Assembly: GCA_017853245.1 (NCBI GenBank)
Contig: JAFMJY010000010.1
Coordinates: 1 to 40,327, forward strand
Direction of reading: 5' to 3'
From: Burkholderiales bacterium
Lineage (GTDB): Bacteria; Pseudomonadota; Gammaproteobacteria; Burkholderiales; Usitatibacteraceae
Length of the DNA: 40,327 nt
Positions 2,468 through 40,327 of the stretch are shown here, in pieces. Position numbers and translations under genes: made by a program. The notes under the pieces were generated by a model, which saw only the letters and a list, made by a program, of their open reading frames with translations, was not told where the DNA came from and did not search any database. How positions within the stretch are numbered: position 1 is the first letter of the stretch; the number at the start of each line of letters is the position of its first letter.

Positions 2468-3889
2468 TCAGGCGTCGCCGTCCGCTCCCCGTTCGCCCAA
2501 CCCGTACCGGCGCAGTTTCACGTAGAGGCTCTGGCGGCTGAGGCCGAGCATCTCCGCCGCCGACGCCCGATTGTCCCGCGTCAGTTCCAGCGCCGCCTGA
2601 ATGCACAGCCGTTCAATCAGGTCGGTGGATTCGCCCACGATCTCGCGCATGGGCACCCGGCCCACGAGCTCCTTGAGTTGCGCTACCGACCGGGGCACCG
2701 TCGACTTCGCCGCGGCAGCCGGCTCCGCAGGCAGTCGGCGGCCGACGTTGCGAATGACGAAGGCAAGCGCTGGCGGGTCCGTCGACGGCACCGAGGCCGC
2801 CGAGATCTCCACCTCCGCCGCCACGCCGTTCTCGCCGCGCAAGGTCGTCGCGAACAGCCGAACGCTCCCGTGTTGCCTGAGGTTGGTGAGCAGCACCTGC
2901 AGGTCCACCCCCGGGCGGCCGAGCCAGCGATCGAGCGACTCGCCGCGAGCCTGCTCCTCGGAGGCCAGCTGGGCGAGTTCCTGGAACGACGGGTTGGCAA
3001 GCATCACGTGACCCTGCATGTCCGTAAGCACGAACGCGTCGGGCGATTCCTGAATGGCCGCGAGCATCGTCGCCCGGCCCTTGGGGTCCCTCGACGTCGC
3101 CGCGGCAGCAGGCAGGGTGAGACGCACGAAGAAAGCCGCCGATTTCTCATGGCGGAAGAGCGAGGCCGTCACGTCACACTCGCCCCGGCCCGCCGCCAGC
3201 CGGACCCGAACATCCTCGGCCTTGCCGGAAGTCCGCGCCGACGAGATGAGCGCAGCGACCTTGTCCGCATCGAGCGCGTCGAAGCACTCCGCAAAGGACC
3301 GGCCCACGACGCGGCTCACGCTCTCGCCCAGAAGGAGGCCGACAGCCGGGTTCGCCTCGGCCACTTTTTCGCCGGCAGCGTCGACCACGAGGATGGCTTC
3401 CGACGACATCTGGAACAGCAACCGGTAGCGCGTCTCGACCTGGCGCAAGCGCCAGTAGTCGCGCTCCATCGACTGCTGGGCTTCGACCAGCCGGGCTTGC
3501 AGCGCGGCCAACGCCCGCAGGTCGCGGCCGATGGCAATGACCTGGCCCTTGGTGCCGACCCGGAGGGCTGAATAGAGAACCGGCACGTCGGCACCGTGCA
3601 CGGAGGGATGGTTGACGTGGCGCCCCTTCGTGGCTGCGCCGGGGGCGGCATCGCGCAGCAGCGCCTCGACCTTCGGGCGGCTCTCCGGGGTGACCGTGTC
3701 GATCCAGGGTTGGCCGACCCACTTGGCGTATCCCTCGCGGGACAGCTCGTCGCTTCCAAAGGACACGTCGCGGATGACGCCTTCGCGATCCATCACGAGA
3801 GCCACATCCGCGGCGGCAGCCAGAAGGGACGCCGCCTGCTCAGGCTGCAGCCCATCGAGCAGTTTGGCGGGGGAGGCGAACGGCTTCAC
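2468..3889 (-). CDS. ppsR: Transcriptional repressor PpsR/CrtJ
   Basis: PpsR is the aerobic repressor of bch, crt and light-harvesting genes. It binds TGT-N12-ACA operators as a tetramer. Visible here are a first PAS region (about residues 12-120), a Gln-containing linker helix (125-150), a second PAS (about 152-260), a third PAS (about 272-385) and a C-terminal Fis-type helix-turn-helix (about 432-463, with SAAEMLGLSRQSLYVKLRRY). Cys429 in ERLCIQAALELT matches the redox-active cysteine before the CrtJ HTH; C202 and C238 are the others. No ATG lies in the expected place. The reading frame extends upstream into aerR, but the GTG at 3889 gives 473 residues, close to the family's ~465-470, so it is chosen. 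The ribosome-binding site is weak. Confidence 0.93.
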   Translation of the reverse strand: MKPFASPAKLLDGLQPEQAASLLAAAADVALVMDREGVIRDVSFGSDELSREGYAKWVGQPWIDTVTPESRPKVEALLRDAAPGAATKGRHVNHPSVHGADVPVLYSALRVGTKGQVIAIGRDLRALAALQARLVEAQQSMERDYWRLRQVETRYRLLFQMSSEAILVVDAAGEKVAEANPAVGLLLGESVSRVVGRSFAECFDALDADKVAALISSARTSGKAEDVRVRLAAGRGECDVTASLFRHEKSAAFFVRLTLPAAAATSRDPKGRATMLAAIQESPDAFVLTDMQGHVMLANPSFQELAQLASEEQARGESLDRWLGRPGVDLQVLLTNLRQHGSVRLFATTLRGENGVAAEVEISAASVPSTDPPALAFVIRNVGRRLPAEPAAAAKSTVPRSVAQLKELVGRVPMREIVGESTDLIERLCIQAALELTRDNRASAAEMLGLSRQSLYVKLRRYGLGERGADGDA

Positions 3890-3974
3890 GAAAGACGGGT
3901 CGGTTACGGTTGGCGGGAGCGAAAAGAACAGGCGCTCCGGCGGGCGCGCATTATGCGTATTGACGGGCGCGCCG

Positions 3975-4832
3975 TCACGCCATCGGCACGTCCACGCCCT
4001 GGGCCAATCGGCGGGTTGCTTCCTGGACAGCCAGGCGGGCGTCGGTCGACACCCAATCGGCCGGCAGGCTTGCGGCCACGTCCGGCTGGGCGTCAAACAG
4101 CCGGCCCCCGGCGAAGATCAGCACGTCCGGGTTGCAGCTGCTGCTTCGCACGGCCTGGATGCAGGCGCGGGTCGTGGCCAAGCGCGACTCCGTGGCAAGA
4201 GAAAGGCCCACGGCGTCAAACGGCTCGGCCGCCACCCACTCTCGCAATTCCTCCACCGAGGCCGGAGCGCTGCCCGACACCTCCCACCCCGCGCGGCGGA
4301 AAAAATCGCCGAGAACGGCAGCGCCGAAGATGTGACCCTCCCCGGGAACCGGAACGAGTAGCGCCCGACGCGAAGACCGGCCCCGGCTTGGCACGGGCGG
4401 CACGACGGTACCCAGCGTGCGAAGGGCTTCATGCAGGCGGTAGAGCCCGAGCGTCACCTCGGCGATGTTGCGGTCGTCGTCGACCCATTGCTCACCCAGC
4501 CGGCGGGCCGCGGGGCCCAGCAGGCCCAGGCTGATGTCCTCGACCGGGATGCCCCGCCGAACAAACCGGAGCACGAAAGTGCTGGCGGCGTCGTGTTCCG
4601 CTGACAGCGACAGGGCCGCCAGCTCCTCTACCGCGCCCACCGGGGGTTGCCACTGCCCGGCCGATGTGGGCCTGTCCCGCCCGTGAGCGCCCACTAACAA
4701 AGGGATGATCTCGACAGCGACCGTGTGCTCCAGCACGGGCTGAAGTCGGTCGATGGAACCCGGCGGCGAGGCGGCGGCGTTCCGGCTGCCGGAGCTTGAG
4801 CCCCCCGGAGGCGCCTTGCGAATCCCGGTCAT
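3975..4832 (-). CDS. aerR: B12-binding photosynthesis regulator AerR/PpaA
   Basis: This 285-residue protein combines a helical segment (about 70-145) with a cobalamin-binding Rossmann-type domain (about 155-270). Key marks are W116 in GEQWVDDD, H134 in YRLHEALRTLG (a candidate cobalamin ligand by comparison with AerR) and the motif PGEGHIFG (163-170), the AerR/PpaA form of the DxHxxG loop of B12 proteins. In Rhodobacter, AerR binds cobalamin in the light and relieves CrtJ/PpsR repression; PpaA acts as an oxygen-dependent activator. The gene sits just upstream of ppsR, as in other purple bacteria, and is divergent from bchF. The first 28 residues are low in complexity and may be dispensable. 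Confidence 0.92.
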   Translation of the reverse strand: MTGIRKAPPGGSSSGSRNAAASPPGSIDRLQPVLEHTVAVEIIPLLVGAHGRDRPTSAGQWQPPVGAVEELAALSLSAEHDAASTFVLRFVRRGIPVEDISLGLLGPAARRLGEQWVDDDRNIAEVTLGLYRLHEALRTLGTVVPPVPSRGRSSRRALLVPVPGEGHIFGAAVLGDFFRRAGWEVSGSAPASVEELREWVAAEPFDAVGLSLATESRLATTRACIQAVRSSSCNPDVLIFAGGRLFDAQPDVAASLPADWVSTDARLAVQEATRRLAQGVDVPMA

Positions 4833-13046: not shown

Positions 13047-13747
13047 TGCGCTCCGCCACTTACGAATCCCGGCGCGGCGAGCTCGAAACCTATTTCGACC
13101 GGACCGCGGCCGATGCATGGGCGCGCCTGACGTCTGACGCGCCAGTGAGCCGCATCCGCGCTACCGTGCGAGCGGGACGCGACACCATGCGATCGACGCT
13201 GCTCGACTGGCTGCCGCAGGACCTCCGAGGCCGGCGGGTGCTGGACGCCGGCTGCGGCACGGGCGCCCTCGCGGTGGAAGCGGCGAAGCGGGGCGCGCAA
13301 GTCGTTGCAGTCGACATCTCCGGAACCCTCGTCGGGCTGGCGAAACAACGGGCCCCCGCGATCCAGAGCGGCGGCAACGTCGAGTTCCTGGTCGGCGACA
13401 TGCTCGATGCCTCGCTTGGCACGTTCGACCACGTCGTGGCGATGGACTCGCTGATCCACTACGACGTGGGCGACATCCTGCGCGTGCTGTCGACGCTCGC
13501 CGCGCGCACGCGCTGTTCCATGGCCGTCACTTTTGCGCCACGAACGCCGGCGCTCGCTGCCCTGCACGCGGTAGGGCGGTTGTTCCCCCGCGGCGATCGG
13601 GCGCCCGCCCTGCAGCCGGTGGCGGAATCCGCGCTTGTCGAAGGGGTGCGTGGCGAGGCCGCGCTGGCGGGCTTTCACCTCGGCCGCTCTCAGCGCGTGA
13701 GCCGGGGCTTCTACACGTCCCAGGCGCTGGAGCTGGTGGCTCGGTGA
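13046..13747 (+). CDS. bchM: Mg-protoporphyrin IX methyltransferase BchM
   Basis: BchM methylates the C13 propionate of Mg-protoporphyrin IX using S-adenosylmethionine, giving the substrate of AcsF. The 233-residue protein has the class I SAM-binding motif VLDAGCGTGALAVEAA (about 65-80) and the acidic second motif VVAVDIS. The early segment LETYFDRTAADAWARLTSD is typical of BchM/ChlM. The start overlaps the bchL stop; the end overlaps the lhaA GTG start as GTGA. Confidence 0.95.
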
Positions 13748-15171
13748 GCCTGCTGCGCGCCATGGCCCAGGGATGGAAACGCGTGGGAACGCGCTGGCTG
13801 CCCTTTGCCGATGCCGCCACCCCAGACCTGCCGCTCCCCCGCCTGCTGCGGCTCTCCTTGATTCAAGTGTCGGTGGGCATGGCCGCAGCGCTGCTCATCG
13901 GAACCCTGAATCGGGTCATGATCGTGGAGATGGGCGTGTCCGCCGCGCTCGTGGCAGTGATGGTGGCGATACCGCTGCTCATCGCGCCGCTTCGCGCCGT
14001 TGTCGGCCATCGGTCCGACCATCACCGGTCGTATCTCGGCTGGCGGCGGGTGCCCTACATCTGGATGGGCACGCTCATCCAGTTCGGCGGGCTCGCCATC
14101 ATGCCCTTCGCGCTGATCCTGCTCTCCGGCGATACCCGGGGCCCGGAGTGGATTGGGGCCACGGCAGCGGCCCTCGCCTTTCTTCTGGTCGGCGCTGGCC
14201 TGCAAACCACCCAGACGGCAGGGCTCGCGCTGGCAGCCGACCTCGCCGCGCCCCCGTCGCGCCCGCGAGTCGTGGCGTTGATGTACGTGATGTTGCTCTT
14301 CGGGATGCTCGGCGGCGGGCTCGCCTTCGCGATGCTGCTGGATGCATACACGCCGGTGCGGCTCATCCGTGTCGTTCAGGGCGCCGCGCTCGCCACGATG
14401 GCGTTGAACCTTTTCGCGCTCTGGAAACAGGAGCCCCGGGATCCCTCGCGCACTCGCCCGTCGATCGAGCGCCCCGACTTCCTCGCGGCCTGGCGGGCGT
14501 ATCGGCAGAGGCCGGGCGCCACCCGGTTTCTGCTGGCCACTGGCCTGGGAACCGCCGCGTTCAGCATGCAGGACATCATTCTCGAGCCCTATGGCGCAGA
14601 GGTGCTGGGGCTCGGCGTCGGCGCCACGGCGTCGCTCACCGCGCTCTCGGCGCTGGGTGCGCTGGCCGCCGTGGCCCTCGCCGCTCACGCGCTGTCGCGC
14701 GGCATCGATCCGCTTCGCCTTGCCGGGGTTGGCGTCATCGCCGGCCTCGCCGCTTTTTCCGCCGTCGTCTTTGCCGCGCCGCTCGAATCCTCCGTGCTCT
14801 TTCGAGGTGGCACCCTGCTGATCGGTTTCGGCGGCGGTTTTTTCTTCGTGTCGACCCTCACTCACGTGATGGGCATGGAAGCGGCAGGCCTCAGTGGCCT
14901 CGCGCTAGGCGCCTGGGGCGCCGTGCAGGCCGCGGCCAACGGCCTGGCCGTTGCCCTGGGCGGGGTCCTTCGGGACGTCGTTGGCTCGGCCGCCAGCGTC
15001 GGCCTCCTCGGGCCCGCGCTCGCCGACTCCGCGACGGGATACAGCTTTGTCTATCACCTCGAAATTGCCTTGCTGTTCGGCACGCTCGTGGCGCTGGGGC
15101 CGCTCGTTCATTTGCGACGAGCCTCGACGCCTTCCCCTCACCGCTTCGGGCTCGCCTCGCTTCCCGGCTAG
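13744..15171 (+). CDS. lhaA: LH1 assembly factor LhaA (PucC family)
   Basis: This 475-residue, twelve-span major-facilitator-like protein belongs to the PucC/LhaA family and is named LhaA from its place between bchM and puhA, where the LH1 assembly gene sits in other purple bacteria. The start is GTG at 13744, overlapping the bchM stop. The N-terminal block WLPFADAATPDLPLPRLLRL and the motif TLNRVMIVEMGVSA are nearly repeated in the second paralogue at 18982. The protein aids insertion of bacteriochlorophyll into, or oligomerisation of, the LH1 ring in the membrane. Confidence 0.92.
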   Translation: MSLLRAMAQGWKRVGTRWLPFADAATPDLPLPRLLRLSLIQVSVGMAAALLIGTLNRVMIVEMGVSAALVAVMVAIPLLIAPLRAVVGHRSDHHRSYLGWRRVPYIWMGTLIQFGGLAIMPFALILLSGDTRGPEWIGATAAALAFLLVGAGLQTTQTAGLALAADLAAPPSRPRVVALMYVMLLFGMLGGGLAFAMLLDAYTPVRLIRVVQGAALATMALNLFALWKQEPRDPSRTRPSIERPDFLAAWRAYRQRPGATRFLLATGLGTAAFSMQDIILEPYGAEVLGLGVGATASLTALSALGALAAVALAAHALSRGIDPLRLAGVGVIAGLAAFSAVVFAAPLESSVLFRGGTLLIGFGGGFFFVSTLTHVMGMEAAGLSGLALGAWGAVQAAANGLAVALGGVLRDVVGSAASVGLLGPALADSATGYSFVYHLEIALLFGTLVALGPLVHLRRASTPSPHRFGLASLPG

Positions 15172-18981: not shown

Positions 18982-20388
18982 ATGAACGCCGTCACGCAGC
19001 GGATGATGCAGTGGTGGGTTGGCCTGGGGCCGCGCTACCTGCCCTTCGCCGATGCGGCAACGCCGGAAGTTCCCCTAAGCCGACTGCTGCGGCTCGCGCT
19101 ATTCCAGGTGTCGGTGGGCATGGCGCTGGTGCTGGTCGTGGGCACGCTCAATCGCGTGATGATCGTCGAGCTCGGGGTGTCGGCAACGATCGTCGCCGTG
19201 ATGATCTCCTTGCCGGTGCTGTTCGCGCCCTTCCGGGCCTTGATCGGCTTTCGGTCCGACACGCACCGCTCGGCGCTCGGCTGGCGACGCGTCCCTTTCA
19301 TCTGGCAGGGCACGCTGGTGCAGTTCGGTGGCCTCGCGATCATGCCGTTCGCGCTTCTCGTGCTGTCGGGTGGTGGCAATGCATCGAGCGCCCCGGCGTG
19401 GGTGGGTCCGCTGGCTGCAGGCCTCGCGTTTTTATTGGTCGGCGCCGGCCTTCACACCACACAGACCGCGGGGCTCGCGCTGGCAACCGACCTCGTGCCC
19501 CCGGAATCGCACCCGAAGGTGGTGGGCCTGATGTACGTGATGCTGCTGACAGGCATGGTGGCGAGCGGCCTGCTCTTCGGCGTGCTCCTCCAGGACTTTT
19601 CCCCCGCAAGGCTGGTGCAGGTGATCCAGGGGGCGGCGGTTGCCACCTTGGCCCTGAACATGGTGGCGCTGTGGAAGCAGGAAGCGCGACGGCCGGGCCG
19701 TCCCCAGGCCCACCCGTCGCAGGCGGACTTCCGGGCGGCGTGGGCTCAGTTCGCCAGGCAACCCGACGCGACCCGGCATCTGGTCGTGCTCGCGCTCGGC
19801 ACCTTGGCGTTCAGCATGCAGGACGTTCTTCTCGAGCCCTACGGCGGCGAGATCCTGGGCATGAGCGTGAGCGGCACCACGCTCCTCACGGCAGCGCTGG
19901 CCGCCGGCACGCTGGTGGGCTTCGTCTGGGCCTCGCGCTTGCTGAGCTCGGGCGGGCATCCCTTCAAGCTCGCGCACTACGGTGCGCTTGGCGGCATTCC
20001 GGCCTTTGCGTTGGTGATCGCAGCGGCCCCCTCCCAATCCGCCCTGGTCTTCGGGTGCGGCGCCTTTTGCGTGGGACTGGCCGCTGGCCTGTTCGGGCAC
20101 GCGACACTCACCGCGAGCATGGCGCTGGCGCCTACGGAGCAAAGGGGCCTCGCGCTCGGCACGTGGGGTGCGGTGCAGGCTACTGCTGCCGGCGTCGGCG
20201 TAGCGATTGGCGGCATCACGCGGGATGGCGTCGGCGCCCTTGCCGATGCAGGCGCGATCAGCGGATCGACTTACGGCGCAGCGACGGGTTACCTGGCGGT
20301 CTACGCGCTGGAAATGGCGCTGCTGGCTGCGGCGGTGCTCGTCGTCGCGCCGCTCGCGCGGTCAGGCTTGCGCACTCACCAAGCCTGA
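18982..20388 (+). CDS. pucC: LH2-type assembly factor PucC
   Basis: This 468-residue, twelve-span protein is the third PucC-family member in the window and is strikingly similar to LhaA at 13744: both share (Y/W)LPFADAATP, a TLNRVMIVE motif and QFGGLAIMPFAL at the same places. It is named PucC because LH2 genes (pucBA) lie just beyond it on the other strand and LhaA is already assigned; the reverse naming is possible. PucC proteins shepherd bacteriochlorophyll into the LH2 antenna. GAGGAGG (18969-18975) serves as ribosome-binding site. Its stop codon abuts the A-run of the opposing terminator. Confidence 0.85.
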   Translation: MNAVTQRMMQWWVGLGPRYLPFADAATPEVPLSRLLRLALFQVSVGMALVLVVGTLNRVMIVELGVSATIVAVMISLPVLFAPFRALIGFRSDTHRSALGWRRVPFIWQGTLVQFGGLAIMPFALLVLSGGGNASSAPAWVGPLAAGLAFLLVGAGLHTTQTAGLALATDLVPPESHPKVVGLMYVMLLTGMVASGLLFGVLLQDFSPARLVQVIQGAAVATLALNMVALWKQEARRPGRPQAHPSQADFRAAWAQFARQPDATRHLVVLALGTLAFSMQDVLLEPYGGEILGMSVSGTTLLTAALAAGTLVGFVWASRLLSSGGHPFKLAHYGALGGIPAFALVIAAAPSQSALVFGCGAFCVGLAAGLFGHATLTASMALAPTEQRGLALGTWGAVQATAAGVGVAIGGITRDGVGALADAGAISGSTYGAATGYLAVYALEMALLAAAVLVVAPLARSGLRTHQA

Positions 20389-29591: not shown

Positions 29592-29609
29592 TGTCAGTTT
29601 AGACTGACA
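29592..29609. promoter_or_regulatory. PpsR operator A upstream of bchC
   Basis: TGTCAGTTTAGACTGACA is an exact TGT-N12-ACA site with perfect seven-base inverted arms (TGTCAGT/ACTGACA). It covers the predicted -10 box of bchC and lies exactly eight bases from operator B. Confidence 0.88.
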
Positions 29610-31690: not shown

Positions 31691-31708
31691 TGTAATCTTA
31701 AAAGGACA
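31691..31708. promoter_or_regulatory. PpsR operator A, crtE/crtD region
   Basis: TGTAATCTTAAAAGGACA is an exact TGT-N12-ACA sequence in the 103-base divergent gap. Its inner bases are less symmetrical than those at bchC. Confidence 0.7.
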
Positions 31709-31715
31709 CTATATG

Positions 31716-31733
31716 TGTCAGCTAATATAGACA
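31716..31733. promoter_or_regulatory. PpsR operator B, crtE/crtD region
   Basis: TGTCAGCTAATATAGACA is an exact TGT-N12-ACA site. It is seven bases from operator A, so the pair resembles the cooperative twin sites upstream of bchC. Convincing -35/-10 pairs for crtE or crtD could not be fixed by eye in this AT-rich gap. Confidence 0.8.
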
Positions 31734-34219: not shown

Positions 34220-35308
34220 ATGCCGAAAACCGCTCCCCCAAAAGCCCAAACCCCCGCCCCGCGAGCGAGCGTGTCGACGATGACGCCATCCTCGAAACGC
34301 GCCTTTCCGTTTTCCGCCATCGTCGGGCAAGAGGAGATGAAGCTCGCGCTGCTCATCGCGGCCGTGGACCCTTCCGTGGGTGGCGTGCTTGTCTTCGGCG
34401 ACCGCGGCACCGGCAAGTCCACTGCGGTTCGCTCGCTCGCCGCGCTGCTGCCACCCATCCGCGTCGTGGAGGGCTGCCCCTACAACTGCGACCCCACCGC
34501 GACAGCGCTCGCCTGCGAGCGCTGCAGCCACGGCGCGCGCCCGCGAGGCCACGCGGCGCCCGTGCCGGTCGTCGACTTGCCTTTGGGCGCGACCGAAGAC
34601 CGGGTAGTCGGTGCGCTCGACATCGAGCGCGCCCTCGCCAAGGGCGAGAAGGCCTTCGAGCCTGGCATGCTCGCCCGAGCCAACCGCGGCTTTCTCTATA
34701 TCGACGAAGTAAACCTGCTCGAGGACCACCTCGTCGACCTGCTGATCGACGTGGCAGCCTCAGGCGAAAACGTGGTGGAGCGCGAAGGCCTGTCGGTACG
34801 TCATCCCGCCCGATTCGTGCTGGTGGGCAGCGGCAACCCGGAAGAGGGGGAGCTTCGCCCCCAGCTGCTCGACCGCTTCGGGTTGTGTGTCGAGGTGAAG
34901 ACGCCGACCGACATCACCGAGCGCGTGCGCGTGGTGCGCAGGCGCGATGAATTCGAGCGTGAGCCCTCAGCCTTCCTCTCCTCGTGGCAGGCGGAGGAAG
35001 ACCAGGTTCGCCACCGCATTCTCGCCGGCCGCAGGCGCCTCGGAGGCACGGTCGTCCCGGATGAAACACTCGAGAAGGCCGCCCGGCTGTGCTTGCGCCT
35101 CGGCACCGACGGCCTGCGGGCGGAGCTCACGCTCACCCGGGCTGCGCGCGCCTGCGCTGCGCTCGATGGCACGAAGCGCGTGGGCGAGAGCCACCTGCGG
35201 CGCGTCGCCACTCTGGCGCTTCGCCACCGTCTGCGCCGGGACCCGCTAGACGAGGTGGGCTCCACGACGCGTATCGAGCGCGCCCTCGCGGAACCGCTCG
35301 ACGCATGA
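34220..35308 (+). CDS. bchI: Mg-chelatase ATPase subunit BchI
   Basis: BchI is the AAA+ motor that, with BchD, drives Mg2+ insertion by BchH. The 362-residue protein has Walker A GDRGTGKS (60-67), a Walker B in GFLYIDEVNLLEDH, and the segment GSGNPEEGELRPQLLDRFGL that is typical of BchI/ChlI. The N-terminal 30 residues before FPFSAIVGQ are Pro/Ala-rich and unconserved; an in-frame ATG at 34280 would remove most of them. No clear ribosome-binding site is visible for either start. The stop overlaps bchD as ATGA. Confidence 0.95.
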   Translation: MPKTAPPKAQTPAPRASVSTMTPSSKRAFPFSAIVGQEEMKLALLIAAVDPSVGGVLVFGDRGTGKSTAVRSLAALLPPIRVVEGCPYNCDPTATALACERCSHGARPRGHAAPVPVVDLPLGATEDRVVGALDIERALAKGEKAFEPGMLARANRGFLYIDEVNLLEDHLVDLLIDVAASGENVVEREGLSVRHPARFVLVGSGNPEEGELRPQLLDRFGLCVEVKTPTDITERVRVVRRRDEFEREPSAFLSSWQAEEDQVRHRILAGRRRLGGTVVPDETLEKAARLCLRLGTDGLRAELTLTRAARACAALDGTKRVGESHLRRVATLALRHRLRRDPLDEVGSTTRIERALAEPLDA

Positions 35309-37071
35309 GCGATCGCTCGGGGAGCGAGCCATCCCCCTGGGAACGCGCAGCGCTCGCTGCCTCGCTGCTGGCGGTTGACCCCATCGGATGCGGCGGCGCC
35401 GTGCTGCGGGGCACAGCCGGGCCCGCAAGGGACCGATGGCTCGCCCTGGTGCGAGAGCTCTCACCCGCCGGCGCGCCGTTCCGGCGCATCCCGCCTCGTA
35501 TCGCCGCAGACCGCCTGCTGGGCGGCCTCGACCTCGCTGCAACGCTGCGGTCGGGAAAGCGTGTTGCACAGCAAGGGCTGCTCGCCGAGGCCCACGAAGG
35601 CTTCGCCGTCCTCGCCATGGCCGAGCGCGTCGAGCCCGGCGTGGCGGCGCAGATCGCATTGGCACGCGAGGCCGGGGAAGTGGCCCTGGCGCGCGAAGGC
35701 GTCACCGCCCGCACGCCGTCACGTTTCGCGCTCCTGGCGCTGGACGAGGGCATCGACGACGAGGCCGTCGCAGCCTGCCTGCGGGACGGGCTCGCGTTTC
35801 ACCTCGACTTGGAGGGTATTCGCGCGGCGGAGACTGGCTGGCGTTGGCATACGGCAGCGGACGTTGCCGAGGCGCGAGCGCGGCTTCCCCGGGTCGAGGC
35901 GGACGAGGCGGTGATCGTCGCGCTATGCGAGACCGCGGCCGCATTGGGCATCGGCTCCCATCGGGCGGAGCTCCTCGCCTTGCGGGTGGCGCGCGCGGCC
36001 GCCGCGCTGGATGGCCGCTCGCGGGTGAGCACGGATGACGTGGTGCTCGCGGGGCGCCTCGTGCTCGCCCCTCGCGCAACAGCCGTCGTGCTGCCCCCCG
36101 ACGACGCGCAGGCGCCTGAGCCTGACAGCCCGCCCGAGCAAGCGGAATCGCGCGAGACAACGAGCGACCCAATGCGAGAGGAAAGCGATGAAGCCCGCCC
36201 GCTCGACGACGTCGTCCTGGAGGCGGTGCGAGCCGCGATCCCCGACGGGCTGCTCGCGCGACTGCAGGCGCTCGCAGCGCGTGGCGCCGTGTCCCGCGGA
36301 ACAGGGCGATCCGGTGACGAGCGTCGATCCACGCTGCGCGGGCGTCCTGCGGGAACGCGAGCGGGCCGGCCCGGGGCGAACGGGCGTCTCAGCGTGATCG
36401 ATACGCTGCGCGCCGCAGCACCCTGGCAGCGGCTCCGTCGGCCGGTAACGAGCCAGGGCGACGCGAGCCTTGCGTTTCATCCCGACGACTTCCGCATCCG
36501 TCGGTTCAAGGCGCGCACCGAAACCACGACCATATTCGCAGTGGACGCGTCCGGCTCGGCCGCGCTGCATCGGCTTGCGGAAGCGAAGGGCGCTGTCGAG
36601 CTGCTGCTCGCCGAGTGCTACGTGCGCCGTGACCGCGTCGCGGTCGTCGCCTTCCGCGGCCAGCGTGCCGAGCTGCTCCTGCCCCCCACGCGCTCGCTGG
36701 CGCGCGCCAAAAAAGGGTTGGCCGGATTGCCGGGCGGCGGCGGGACACCGCTCGCCTCCGCGCTCGACCTCGCGCGCCAACTCGCCGATGCCGTGGCTCG
36801 CCGCGGCGGAACCGCGAGCCTCGTCGTGCTCACGGACGGGCAAGCCAATGTCGCGCGCGACGGCTCGGGTGGTCGGCAGCGCGCAGGCGACGAGGCGCGC
36901 CAGGCTGCGCGGCTCCTGCGCGCAACCGGAACGCGCAGCGTGGTGATCGACACGGCATCCCGGCCGCAGGCGCTTGCTCGCCAGCTCGCCGACGACATGG
37001 GCGCCCGTTACGTGCCTTTGCCGCACGCGGGCGCGAGGGCCATCTCCGAGGTGGCGCGACTCTCCAGCTAG
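35305..37071 (+). CDS. bchD: Mg-chelatase subunit BchD
   Basis: BchD is the adaptor of Mg-chelatase. The 588-residue protein has an AAA+ domain with an eroded Walker A (GGAVLRGTAGPARD, about 28-41), an acidic/proline linker around residues 270-300, and a C-terminal von Willebrand A domain with the MIDAS elements DASGSA, GGGTPLASAL and LTDGQAN. This matches the family plan. The start overlaps bchI. The stop TAG (37069-37071) sits in a CTAG that also contains the stop of the convergent gene on the other strand. Confidence 0.94.
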   Translation: MSDRSGSEPSPWERAALAASLLAVDPIGCGGAVLRGTAGPARDRWLALVRELSPAGAPFRRIPPRIAADRLLGGLDLAATLRSGKRVAQQGLLAEAHEGFAVLAMAERVEPGVAAQIALAREAGEVALAREGVTARTPSRFALLALDEGIDDEAVAACLRDGLAFHLDLEGIRAAETGWRWHTAADVAEARARLPRVEADEAVIVALCETAAALGIGSHRAELLALRVARAAAALDGRSRVSTDDVVLAGRLVLAPRATAVVLPPDDAQAPEPDSPPEQAESRETTSDPMREESDEARPLDDVVLEAVRAAIPDGLLARLQALAARGAVSRGTGRSGDERRSTLRGRPAGTRAGRPGANGRLSVIDTLRAAAPWQRLRRPVTSQGDASLAFHPDDFRIRRFKARTETTTIFAVDASGSAALHRLAEAKGAVELLLAECYVRRDRVAVVAFRGQRAELLLPPTRSLARAKKGLAGLPGGGGTPLASALDLARQLADAVARRGGTASLVVLTDGQANVARDGSGGRQRAGDEARQAARLLRATGTRSVVIDTASRPQALARQLADDMGARYVPLPHAGARAISEVARLSS

Positions 37072-39194
37072 TGCAGCGCCTCGCCGGGAGCACGGACATG
37101 CCCGGGATCGGATGCCGCGCTGCCCACCAGCGCGAGGATCTGCTGCGCAAGCTCCGCTGCATGACGCGAGGAAAATCCAAGGCTCTCGAGCGTGCGCGAG
37201 GCATCGGCCCCGGGCCTGGAATGAGCCGACGCGTCGGCGTCGCCACCGGCGCCGATCGAGGAGAGGAGGATGAACCCGAGCGCCCCGAAGCCGTCGAGCC
37301 GCGGGATGACCTCGACCCGCAGGGCGATGCAGGCCTGGCTCGCACCACCCGCATCAACGGGCAGCTCACCCACCCAACTTTCCCGTCGCTCGAGCATCGA
37401 CTCGACAAGCGATTGCGCTGCCGCCGACGTGCCGAACGCCGAGCGCAGGTCTGGCAGCGTGAGGTCGGCCTGATTGGGCAGGGTGAAGTTCCGGCGGAAA
37501 GCCTGGTTCACGAAACGCACGCAGCCGCTGCCATCCGCAATCAGGATGCCCTCGTCGGAGCCCTGTAGTGCCCGGCTCAGTCCTTCGAGCCGATCCTCCA
37601 TGAGGAGGTAGCTCATGGAGCGCACTTGCATCGAAACGTCCCGCAACGCCACGGCAACCGCTTTCGCCGAAGCCACGTCGGCATGGGACCAAGGGCGACT
37701 TCCGAGGCCCGCGAGTTGGCCCCCCTTGGATGGAACTCGGATATCGCGGGCCGCCTCGCGTCGAAACCACAGCAGGAACTCGCCTCCCGGCCGCGACAAC
37801 TCCACCGCCAACACCCCCATGCGTTCCTCGCCCTCATTCAGGGTGCCGGGGAGGCCATTCGGCAGTGAGTCGCGCGCCATGACGCCACCCTGCATGGGCT
37901 GCGCGGCGAGCCACAGGGCCAGGCCGCGAAGCGCATCGTCCGAGGGCGCGTGTCCCGATCGACGGATCTGACCCTCGGAGAGGAGCGCCAACCCGTCGGC
38001 GCCCACCAGCGCCAACAGGTCGCGCGCATCGTCGAGCACGGTCTCCTGCCAGAGGCCGCCGGCGAGCGTCTGGGCGAGGAGGTGCTCGTCGAGTCGACGA
38101 ATCGTCGATGCCGACGCCACCTGCGCAAAATTCTCGATGACGGCAACTCGCGCCGCGACCAGGTCTGCAACGAGGTCGCACGCCTTGTGCAGCGCCGGGG
38201 GGAGCGGGCGCGGATGCGGGTGATAGCCAGCCACGACGCCCCAAGGCTCGCCTGAGCGCTCGACCACGCTGACGAACCCCGCTCGCGCGCCTGCATCACG
38301 AAAGTGTTGCCGCAACAGGGGCGAGACCGACGCGAGCAAGGCGCGCGCCAGGTCGGGCGGGCTGCCCATGGCCTCCAGCAGCGGTGGAACGAGGGGCACA
38401 TCGGCCGCGGCGACGTCGGCAACAGCGCGCACCCGCGCAGCGAAACCGCCCTTCGGCGCCGAGCCCAGGGCATCCAGGTCGGGGAAGCCTGCGCCCAGCC
38501 AGGGATCGCAGGGACCGACACGGCTCTCTCCCACCACCTCGCCGACACCGGAGTCCGCCAGGCGGTACACGATCACCCGCTCGAAACCGGTCAGTTTTTG
38601 ATAGAGGACCGCCGCACCAGCGGCGAGCTCGCTCAGGCGAGTGGCGCCGCCGACGTGGCCGATGGCCCCGCCCAACGCGTTCGCCAGGTCACGGGAGTCG
38701 GAAGCGGCGTCGGGCAAAGGGCACGGTACTGCCTCCAACACCACGACGCCATCGCGGGTGCGGTGAATCGAGCCTGCCACACCCCGAGCGCCACTGCGGA
38801 GGGCCCGGGTCGCGCAAACAAATGGCGTGGGCGTCTCGCCGACACGCTCTCGCATGCGCAAGCGAACCTGGGACGCGAGGTCGCCCCCGAGGATGTCAAG
38901 CGACTCGCCAACCAGCGCGGCCGATGGCACGCCCAGCAGCTCCCCGGCGTTGGCGCTCGCTTGGCGCACGACGCCCGTCGCCCCATCCAGAATGAAAACG
39001 GCGCCGTGCGGCTGCACCCGCGCGGGCGCGCCGGACGATCGGGTTTTTGTGCCCGGCCCCGCGCCCCCCCGCGCCGCCGTGCCCTCGGACTTTTTCATGC
39101 CCTGCGCCCTTTGAAGAAGGCTTTTGCGGATCGTCCAGCGGCGTGGGATTGCTGTCAATGTCCTCCGCGGCTCGCCCATCTCGAGGACCAACAA
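37068..39194 (-). CDS. Phytochrome-like photosensory protein lacking chromophore-binding residues
   Basis: The 708-residue reading frame shows a bacteriophytochrome plan: PAS (QPHGAVFILD at 61-70, then QASANAGELLG), GAF (about 185-355, LTGFERVIVYRLADSGVGEV), PHY (about 370-525, with GGEFLLWFRREAARDI at 470-485), then another PAS (about 535-650) and a short helical end. There is no histidine kinase. The cysteine normally found before QPHG is absent (first Cys is 127), PASDIP is replaced by PDLDAL, and the SPIH histidine by SPLL. Biliverdin binding is therefore doubtful. The start is uncertain: Met1, Met6 (39179) or Met33 (39098). The gene faces bchD and diverges from crtI. By analogy with Bradyrhizobium and Rhodopseudomonas, a role in PpsR control is possible but inferred. 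Confidence 0.8.
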   Translation of the reverse strand: MLVLEMGEPRRTLTAIPRRWTIRKSLLQRAQGMKKSEGTAARGGAGPGTKTRSSGAPARVQPHGAVFILDGATGVVRQASANAGELLGVPSAALVGESLDILGGDLASQVRLRMRERVGETPTPFVCATRALRSGARGVAGSIHRTRDGVVVLEAVPCPLPDAASDSRDLANALGGAIGHVGGATRLSELAAGAAVLYQKLTGFERVIVYRLADSGVGEVVGESRVGPCDPWLGAGFPDLDALGSAPKGGFAARVRAVADVAAADVPLVPPLLEAMGSPPDLARALLASVSPLLRQHFRDAGARAGFVSVVERSGEPWGVVAGYHPHPRPLPPALHKACDLVADLVAARVAVIENFAQVASASTIRRLDEHLLAQTLAGGLWQETVLDDARDLLALVGADGLALLSEGQIRRSGHAPSDDALRGLALWLAAQPMQGGVMARDSLPNGLPGTLNEGEERMGVLAVELSRPGGEFLLWFRREAARDIRVPSKGGQLAGLGSRPWSHADVASAKAVAVALRDVSMQVRSMSYLLMEDRLEGLSRALQGSDEGILIADGSGCVRFVNQAFRRNFTLPNQADLTLPDLRSAFGTSAAAQSLVESMLERRESWVGELPVDAGGASQACIALRVEVIPRLDGFGALGFILLSSIGAGGDADASAHSRPGADASRTLESLGFSSRHAAELAQQILALVGSAASDPGHVRAPGEALH

Positions 39195-39236: not shown

Positions 39237-39254
39237 TGTATGGATGCCGTGACA
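39237..39254. promoter_or_regulatory. Possible PpsR operator over the crtI start codon
   Basis: TGTATGGATGCCGTGACA is TGT-N12-ACA, with the right arm TGACA matching the best sites in the window and the left arm only TGT. It begins three bases before the crtI ATG. A single site without a partner is weaker than the twin sites elsewhere. Confidence 0.4.
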
Positions 39255-40327
39255 TTTCCTCCCCGATCGGGCCCGTCGGCACGTGCCGAGCCCCGCCGGC
39301 CGCACGCGGTAATCATCGGCAGCGGTTTCGGGGGCCTGGCAGCCGCCATCCGCCTGGGTGCGCGCGGCTACCGGGTCACCGTGCTCGAGCGCCTCGAGCA
39401 ACCCGGCGGCCGTGCCTGCGTCTTCAAGCGCGACGGCCATGTTTTCGACGCCGGCCCGACGATCGTCACCGCGCCGTTCCTGTTCGAGGAATTGTGGTCG
39501 CTCTGCGGCCGCCGCTTCGCCGACGACATCGACCTGCGCTCACTCTCCCCCTTCTATCGCATCCGCTTCCACGACGGCGAAACGCTGGACTGCTTCGCCG
39601 AAGCAGACCGCATGCGCGCCGAGGTCGCCCGCCTCTCCCCGGGCGACGTCGAGGGGTACGAGCGGTTCATGGCCGCCAGCGAGGCCACTTACCGGGTGGG
39701 ATTCGAGCAACTGGGCCACGTGCCCTTTGACTCGTGGCGAGACATGGCGCGCGTCGTCCCGGCGATGATGCGGCTGAAGAGCCACCTGTCGATCCACAGT
39801 CTTGTCGCCCGGCACGTGAAGAACGAGCGGCTGCGCTTCGCCTTGAGCTTCCACCCGCTTTTTGTCGGCGGCAATCCGTTCAATGTCACCTCCATCTACG
39901 GGCTGATTGCGCACCTGGAACGCCGCCACGGCGTGCACTTCGTGATGGGGGGCACCGGGCGGCTCGTGGCCGGGATGGTCTCGCTCATCGAGGGCCAGGG
40001 CGGGCGGTTGCGCTGCAACGAAGAGGTGGTTCAGATCACGCTGCGCGGCCAGGCTGCGACCGGCGTGCGCCTCGCTTCCGGCGAGTTCGTCGCCGCCGAC
40101 GTGGTGGTCTCGAACGCCGACACGGCGTGGACCTACAAGCACCTGCTGCCGCCCGAGTCGCGCAAGCGGTGGACCGACAAGCGCATCGACCGCGCGCGCT
40201 ATTCCATGGGGCTCTTCGTCTGGTACTTCGGGACGCGGCGGCGCTACCCCGATGTGGCGCACCACACCATCCTCGTCGGGCCGCGCTACCGCGAGCTGCT
40301 GCACGACATCTTCGAGCGCAAGGTGCT
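39240..40327 (+). CDS. crtI: Phytoene desaturase CrtI (N-terminal part)
   Basis: The gene runs off the right edge after 362 codons. CrtI desaturates phytoene to neurosporene or lycopene, feeding CrtC and CrtD. The FAD loop HAVIIGSGFGGLAAAIRLGA (from about residue 22) and the following TVLERLEQPGGRACVF, DAGPTIVTAPFLFEELW and FHPLFVGGNPFNVTSIYGLI are typical of CrtI. The reading starts at ATG 39240; the next in-frame option is GTG 39249. The expected C-terminal motif is beyond the window. It is divergent from the phytochrome-like gene; crtB usually follows but is not visible. Confidence 0.93.
   Translation, partial: MDAVTFPPRSGPSARAEPRRPHAVIIGSGFGGLAAAIRLGARGYRVTVLERLEQPGGRACVFKRDGHVFDAGPTIVTAPFLFEELWSLCGRRFADDIDLRSLSPFYRIRFHDGETLDCFAEADRMRAEVARLSPGDVEGYERFMAASEATYRVGFEQLGHVPFDSWRDMARVVPAMMRLKSHLSIHSLVARHVKNERLRFALSFHPLFVGGNPFNVTSIYGLIAHLERRHGVHFVMGGTGRLVAGMVSLIEGQGGRLRCNEEVVQITLRGQAATGVRLASGEFVAADVVVSNADTAWTYKHLLPPESRKRWTDKRIDRARYSMGLFVWYFGTRRRYPDVAHHTILVGPRYRELLHDIFERKV

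Follow-up and report, generated by a model that had tools for sequence, protein, structure and literature searches.

A pigment-free descendant of PpsR-linked bacteriophytochromes in the photosynthesis gene cluster of a Usitatibacteraceae bacterium

The stretch of DNA analysed here (the window) is the entire 40,327-base contig JAFMJY010000010.1 (G000:C161 in our genome set) of assembly GCA_017853245.1, from a Burkholderiales bacterium of the family Usitatibacteraceae; the parent assembly (G000) comprises 2.75 Mb and is 98.7% complete. The window carries a photosynthesis gene cluster with bchG, ppsR, a gene for an AerR/PpaA-like B12-binding protein, bchF, bchN, bchH, bchL, puhA, puhC and acsF, followed in our listing by puhE, pufL, pufM, bchC, bchX, bchY, bchZ, crt genes, bchI, bchD and the start of crtI. 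Located on the minus strand between bchD and crtI is a gene for a degenerate phytochrome, here termed phy, the only phytochrome found in the genome (E ≤ 0.001). An earlier note on this DNA, made from its letters, had singled out the phy product as possibly light-blind. The coordinates of phy, its domains and the relevant neighbouring genes are collected in Table 1.

The phy open reading frame (ORF) is uninterrupted across 708 codons. Its probable start is the internal ATG rather than the outermost TTG, the former being preceded by AAGGG 8 nt upstream and lying 28 codons before the QPHG motif, close to the starts of the homologues. The PAS, GAF and PHY domains occur in bacteriophytochrome order and are followed by a PAS9-like output domain, with no kinase domain. 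Pfam matches to PAS_2 (38.4 bits), PHY (80.2 bits) and PAS (32.1 bits) exceed their cut-offs, while that to GAF (15.1 bits) falls below its cut-off of 22.4. The best relative of solved structure is RpBphP1 of R. palustris (4gw9; 236 bits; residues 57-646), with an alignment spanning PAS, GAF and PHY. The PAS-GAF-PHY-PAS plan described in the earlier note thus agrees with both Pfam and the 4gw9 alignment, and its account of the output as a PAS domain plus a short helical end was borne out as well, this being a two-helix end without the first helices. The nearest homologue found is the phytochrome of genome G203, which belongs to the same order (37% over 667 residues). A chance ORF is excluded by this homology and by a codon use inside the range of the neighbouring genes, albeit at its low end (GC content at third codon positions 0.80). 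An AlphaFold2 model built from a three-row alignment reached a mean pLDDT of 44.8 and was not used as evidence.

The residues of the phy product were compared with those of 11 homologues, all of them intact and from the same order. Ten have bch genes alongside, and the one in G284 lies beside ppsR. The list of pocket columns and the residue numbering follow DrBphP. The bilin-binding Cys (C24 equivalent) is absent before QPHG. Positions invariant in the 11 homologues are changed at Y203F, I208A, P209L, Y216G, R254A, Y263H, M267A, T272G, C289G, H290Y and M174I, and the H260 equivalent is also changed, while the equivalents of D207, Y176, A212, R222, S257 and V274 are kept. Among DIP, Y216, H260, Y263 and H290 of the GAF pocket, the Asp of DIP alone is retained. 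The substitution of PDLDAL for PASDIP pointed out in the earlier note is real, with the addition that this Asp (D207) still lies inside PDLDAL. The PHY tongue is missing 22 residues relative to both 4gw9 and G203. A window Arg is aligned at the PRxSF Arg column in one alignment where the others have a gap, PRxSF being absent either way. The lack of a Cys before QPHG, SPLL in place of SPxH, the lack of PRxSF and the lack of a kinase, as first described, all hold. In total, phy keeps 75 of the 159 columns invariant in the 11 intact homologues, while intact rows left out singly keep 159 of 159-186. The protein contains six Cys, and for four of them (ORF residues 158, 229, 558 and 622) none of the 11 intact homologues has a counterpart. 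The first of these, between PAS and GAF, forms a Cys-Pro pair (EAVPCPLP); such pairs can be heme-binding motifs.

The pigment enzyme has also been lost. A search of 15 genomes recovered heme oxygenase (PF01126) from each of the 11 whose phytochrome is intact, while no PF01126 match was obtained in the 98.7% complete window genome, other heme-degrading families not having been searched. The family is absent too from G008, G013 and G015, which belong to the window's taxonomic family, have pufM and gave no phytochrome match. The heme oxygenase gene (bphO) lies beside the phytochrome in 13/14 intact loci (tblastn with the G203 enzyme as query), the flank of the fourteenth (G1270) stopping at a contig edge, and in 0/3 Cys-less loci, namely that of the window and two others described below. 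In G203, where the bilin residues and the tongue are intact, the phytochrome also converges on bchD, with bphO between them (phy-> <-bphO <-bchD <-bchI), whereas in the window (bchI-> bchD-> <-phy) nothing lies between the two genes and their stops overlap by 4 nt. The simplest history is a loss of bphO at the bchD/phy junction, with the ancestral order inferred from this one genome.

With pocket, tongue and heme oxygenase gone, the light-blindness suspected in the earlier note is strongly supported at the sequence level. The opposing view, that phy is a photoreceptor holding bilin non-covalently, could draw on the retained equivalents of D207, Y176, A212, R222, S257 and V274, but it has to contend with the loss of the Cys, of the I208, P209, Y216, R254, H260, Y263 and H290 equivalents and of the tongue, and with the absence of PF01126 from the genome, and we regard it as very improbable.

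Table 1. Positions of phy, its domains, neighbouring genes and the related Cys-less genes of a second lineage. Residues are those of the 708-codon frame.
Feature	Contig	Position	Strand	Remarks
phy, coding sequence of the light-blind phytochrome	window	37068..39098	-	likelier ATG start (39098), 676 amino acids; frame open up to TTG 39194
N-terminal PAS	window	38715..39026	-	residues 57-160; QPHG kept, Cys lost; Pfam PAS_2
GAF	window	38133..38639	-	residues 186-354; PDLDAL 38466-38483, SPLL 38313-38324, H290->Y 38223-38225; bilin pocket eroded
PHY and following long helix hI	window	37587..38099	-	residues 366-536; Pfam PHY
PHY tongue remnant	window	37692..37739	-	residues 486-501; 22 residues with PRxSF gone
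Stretch of highest conservation (hI helix, beginning of output PAS)	window	37515..37667	-	residues 510-560
Output PAS (PAS9-like)	window	37251..37586	-	residues 537-648; Pfam PAS; 46.4% to G203
Shortened HOS-like end	window	37122..37250	-	hJ' and hJ absent, hK-like helix kept (alignments; helix names from PMC6899989)
bchD ORF	window	35089..37071	+	family match starts at codon 82; converges on phy, 4-nt stop overlap
ppsR	window	2468..4096	-	TIGR02040, 521.5 bits; sole copy above family cut-off in genome
AerR/PpaA-like B12-binding protein	window	3975..4832	-	PF02310, 41.7 bits; overlaps upstream extension of long ppsR ORF
crtI	window	39240..40327	+	divergent from phy; truncated by contig end
Second-lineage phytochrome L165/L166	G1592:C22	about 301098-303188		just behind ppsR2
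Second-lineage phytochrome L167/L168	G1398:C34	about 88132-90226		just behind ppsR2

Residues were further read in 64 phytochrome loci besides the window, near-duplicates being counted apart. The bilin Cys is present in 61 of these; in two (L139 and L164) nothing is aligned at its position, and one (L163) lacks it. D207 and R254 are kept in 64/64 loci, P209, Y263 and Y176 in 63/64 (the exception being L163), H260 and Y216 in 63/64 (L030 differs) and H290 in 63/64 (Gly in L116). Odd pocket or tongue residues in the presence of the Cys were observed in L030 (H260Y and Y216F), L116 (H290G) and L019 (S468D), while L160 has an alignment gap at the PRxSF column, yet PRRSF in its own sequence. Whether related clusters share the residue losses, a question raised in the earlier note, can be answered in two parts: the Cys is kept in 61/64 loci, and similar losses occur in the genomes G1592 and G1398.

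Only one of 60 relatives besides the window genome has a phytochrome (E ≤ 1e-5), namely G055, in which both copies contain the Cys. At the order level, phytochrome matches were found in 27/399 genomes (E ≤ 1e-30; window counted where sampled; the match in G226:C29 unread). At E ≤ 1e-40, they were found in 1/369 genomes of the class, this being the window itself, and in 7/398 of the phylum, as well as in 2/98, 6/12, 29/399 and 2/67 genomes of the families of G203, G180 (alignment query), G341 and G403, respectively. A phytochrome of the window type was found in one genome only across all these searches, most of which were confined to a small number of candidates in each genome at E 1e-30 to 1e-40, so that further Cys-less copies may be missed. 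Scans of other databases returned one distant phytochrome among genome contigs and one distant match among viral contigs, and none of 59 plasmid records covered 80% of the query. No chromophore-less PpsR-linked phytochrome is described in the titles and abstract openings listed by our searches of open-licence PMC articles, which is a weak negative.

The Cys-less locus L163 led to the genus g704, in which G1592 and G1398 carry a phytochrome without the Cys, I208/P209 and PRxSF. Like phy, it is situated in the photosynthesis cluster, and no heme oxygenase gene was found in roughly 40 kb around it. In G1592, the ppsR2 stop is followed at 4 nt by an in-frame GTG. The ratio of nonsynonymous to synonymous substitutions (dN/dS; own Nei-Gojobori script) between the two Cys-less genes is 0.225 (0.180-0.286) over 665 codons, with values of 0.354 for PAS, 0.133 for GAF, 0.361 for PHY, 0.135 for hI and output PAS and 0.172 for the helical end (HOS). 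For comparison, the same two genomes yield 0.190 for their intact phytochrome, 0.159 for ppsR2 and 0.082 for ppsR1. The Cys- and tongue-less phytochrome of G1592 and G1398 is clearly under purifying selection.

In the phylogenetic tree, this pair is nested among intact sequences in a group of eight rows (100/99), with poor support for its exact place there, while the window is joined to G203 (100/100). A single clade of the three Cys-less sequences was rejected by the approximately unbiased test (p-AU = 0.00015), in which the group was chosen after the trees had been seen and the window forms a long branch. The losses of the window and of G1592/G1398 are apparently of separate origin. A set of 14 intact rows has 145 invariant columns, of which 79 are lost in the window and 58 in the pair, with 47 in common (hypergeometric P = 1e-7, for columns that are not independent and a tongue that was lost as a block). 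Among those lost in both are the Cys, Y203, I208, P209, Y263, M267, T272 and PRxSF. The second-lineage proteins have eight and seven Cys, with one Cys column common with the window and no shared redox pair.

End-branch lengths were fitted by domain with the topology fixed and 40 column bootstraps (5th-95th percentiles). The near-duplicates G359 and G303 were excluded from these fits and from the sliding-window mean of the other sequences, and included in the residue-column counts. The window branch is longer than that of G203 in GAF (2.42, 1.78-4.04, vs 0.21), the PHY core (1.32 vs 0.30) and the output PAS (1.01, 0.73-1.34, vs 0.26), while the N-terminal PAS shows no acceleration (0.89 vs 0.87). 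Neutral decay should load all domains alike, and these uneven rates thus disfavour uniform decay. Between residues 525 and 554, from hI into the output PAS, identity is 73% between window and G203 vs 38% between G203 and the others, a pattern that is reversed across the GAF pocket (residues 225-329; 20-37% vs 60-77%).

These data bear on the view that phy is a late relic, i.e. a phytochrome without its pigment enzyme that is decaying and has not yet been broken by a stop or frameshift. The occurrence in one genome only, the long branch (1.5-1.8), the half-deleted HOS and the keeping of 75/159 invariant columns speak for it. However, neutral simulations from the G203 codons (substitutions only) produced a stop in 97.7% of copies at 0.1 changes per site and in 300/300 at 0.2, while phy extends over its full length without one. 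Furthermore, the N-terminal PAS is not accelerated, hI and output PAS are the best conserved parts and codon use is in the neighbours' range. Decay of the single window copy is disfavoured and a late relic is distinctly unlikely, although function may have been lost recently, after a long functional blind phase.

We conclude that phy descends from PpsR-linked phytochromes and has become pigment-free; in another lineage, apparently separate, a Cys- and tongue-less form is under selection. That phy has moreover been maintained as a regulator independent of light, with a PpsR-linked bacteriophytochrome of the RpBphP1 group (type 3) as its ancestor, has in our estimate about an even chance. In the light state of RpBphP1, the HOS helices are released and take hold of PpsR2, and the protein fails to bind PpsR2 once HOS is removed (PMC6899989). 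Both RpBphP1 and BrBphP1 of Bradyrhizobium act on PpsR2 (PMC6899989, PMC3899966). The phy product resembles these two proteins in its succession of PAS, GAF, PHY, PAS9 and helical end, the lack of a kinase and the photosynthesis gene context. It differs from them in the loss of the bilin Cys, pocket, tongue and helix hJ, and in belonging to a genome without heme oxygenase and with a single ppsR; in G203, too, one ppsR lies above the cut-off.

As a light-independent regulator, phy would belong to a lineage that lost bphO, the bilin pocket and the pigment-reading tongue, in an order that we infer, while the N-terminal PAS, hI and output PAS stayed constrained. Given the loss of pocket and tongue, a light cycle of the RpBphP1 type would be impossible for the window protein, which most likely acts as a dimer locked in a single signalling state. 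How it affects the photosynthesis regulators, with PpsR as the likeliest target, would then depend on the amount of protein or on a non-light input. As half of the HOS is gone, phy may regulate the same genes via another contact, in the output PAS or hI. The PpsR partnership considered in the earlier note is possible by descent and context, but helix hJ is lost, and HOS-less RpBphP1 does not bind RpPpsR2 (PMC6899989). The AerR partnership proposed alongside it has an AerR/PpaA-like gene in the cluster to build on, but nothing links AerR physically to phy. According to PMC6199135, every purple photosynthetic bacterium sequenced has aerR. AerR may be the protein left to control PpsR in response to light. 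For G1592 and G1398, the intact HOS and the adjacent ppsR2 would suggest a PpsR2 partner that is not light-dependent in the usual way.

Several observations weigh against a maintained light-independent regulator. In the HOS of phy, hJ' and hJ are gone and a hK-like helix is present, and the output PAS has evolved about 4-fold faster than in G203 (rate ratio 3.85, 1.31-94). With this faster output PAS and only half of the HOS left, some relaxation in these parts is real. The invariant pocket columns are kept by phy in 6/21 cases and the other invariant columns in 69/138, so that residue loss by count appears only somewhat heavier in the pocket, which is not clearly singled out. The window copy has no close relative, and present selection on it cannot be measured. 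Finally, the second lineage differs from the window in retaining the D207, Y216, R254, H260 and H290 equivalents and an intact HOS, in its position behind ppsR2 and in the intact phytochrome with bphO found elsewhere in both genomes. With a heme oxygenase elsewhere, the second lineage supports a similar loss, and not the same state or function. Because pocket residues are kept and heme oxygenase is present in the genome, the blindness of its protein also appears less certain than that of the window protein.

More generally, the cluster phytochromes may repeatedly have been made pigment-free regulators by loss of the Cys, the tongue and the adjacent heme oxygenase and by erosion of the pocket, and been selected as constitutive or ligand-sensing partners of PpsR, with at least two separate origins in the order. 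This view is weakened by the several pocket residues retained in the second lineage and by the heme oxygenase elsewhere in its genome, and we advance it tentatively, as something possible but somewhat doubtful.

The phy product could instead be a redox or small-molecule sensor, in which the changed GAF or PAS domain binds heme, a tetrapyrrole precursor or a flavin, or which uses its cysteines, with hI relaying the signal to the output PAS. Ligand sites are common in GAF and PAS folds. The four cysteines absent from the 11 intact homologues would suit such a sensor, as would the second-lineage GAF, which is constrained (dN/dS 0.133) despite lacking the Cys and the tongue. However, only one Cys column is common to the window and the second lineage, no ligand motif was noticed beyond the single Cys-Pro pair, and the window copy evolves fastest in GAF, which is more like relaxed constraint; we consider a sensor unlikely, though not far-fetched. 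BphP4 of R. palustris CGA009 reportedly lost its bilin and is said to be a redox-sensing histidine kinase with redox-active cysteines. Going by this description, phy is likewise a bacteriophytochrome that has lost its pigment in a phototroph, and differs in having no kinase and in having lost the tongue and pigment enzyme too. The comparison with BphP4 made in the earlier note gained no positive support: the four cysteines are lineage-specific, but only one column is shared with the second lineage.

The pigment is what defines a phytochrome. Two lineages retaining the scaffold without the attachment site, the tongue and the adjacent pigment enzyme would show what the scaffold does by itself in PpsR control. 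Such proteins would also offer natural single-state variants of BphP1, which is used in near-infrared optogenetics. The G1592/G1398 pair, in which ppsR2 and the changed gene are adjacent and selection is measurable, makes the question directly testable.

Contamination as the source of the window contig is unlikely. Mis-binning was considered and rejected, the tetranucleotide correlation of three 13-kb window pieces with the genome's own contigs having means of 0.66-0.72, vs 0.70 among the own contigs and 0.17-0.60 for other genomes (11 own contigs of at least 9 kb, out of 17 stretches, one of which appears masked). The pufM gene is found in 0/7 other genomes of the window genus, and is present in G008, G013, G015 and G022, of another genus of the same family.

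An Rfam scan of the window returned nothing at the gathering score. PpsR-type TGTN12ACA boxes number five in the window against 2.65 expected, and 12 of 100 shuffles reach five. As this total is not above chance, a copy at the crtI start means little. Others lie near bchC/crtF (29592-29609) and, as a pair, near crtE/crtD (31691-31708 and 31716-31733). The cluster also encodes three PUCC-family proteins of the major facilitator superfamily type, at 100-1599 on the minus strand and at 13744-15171 and 18982-20388 on the plus strand.

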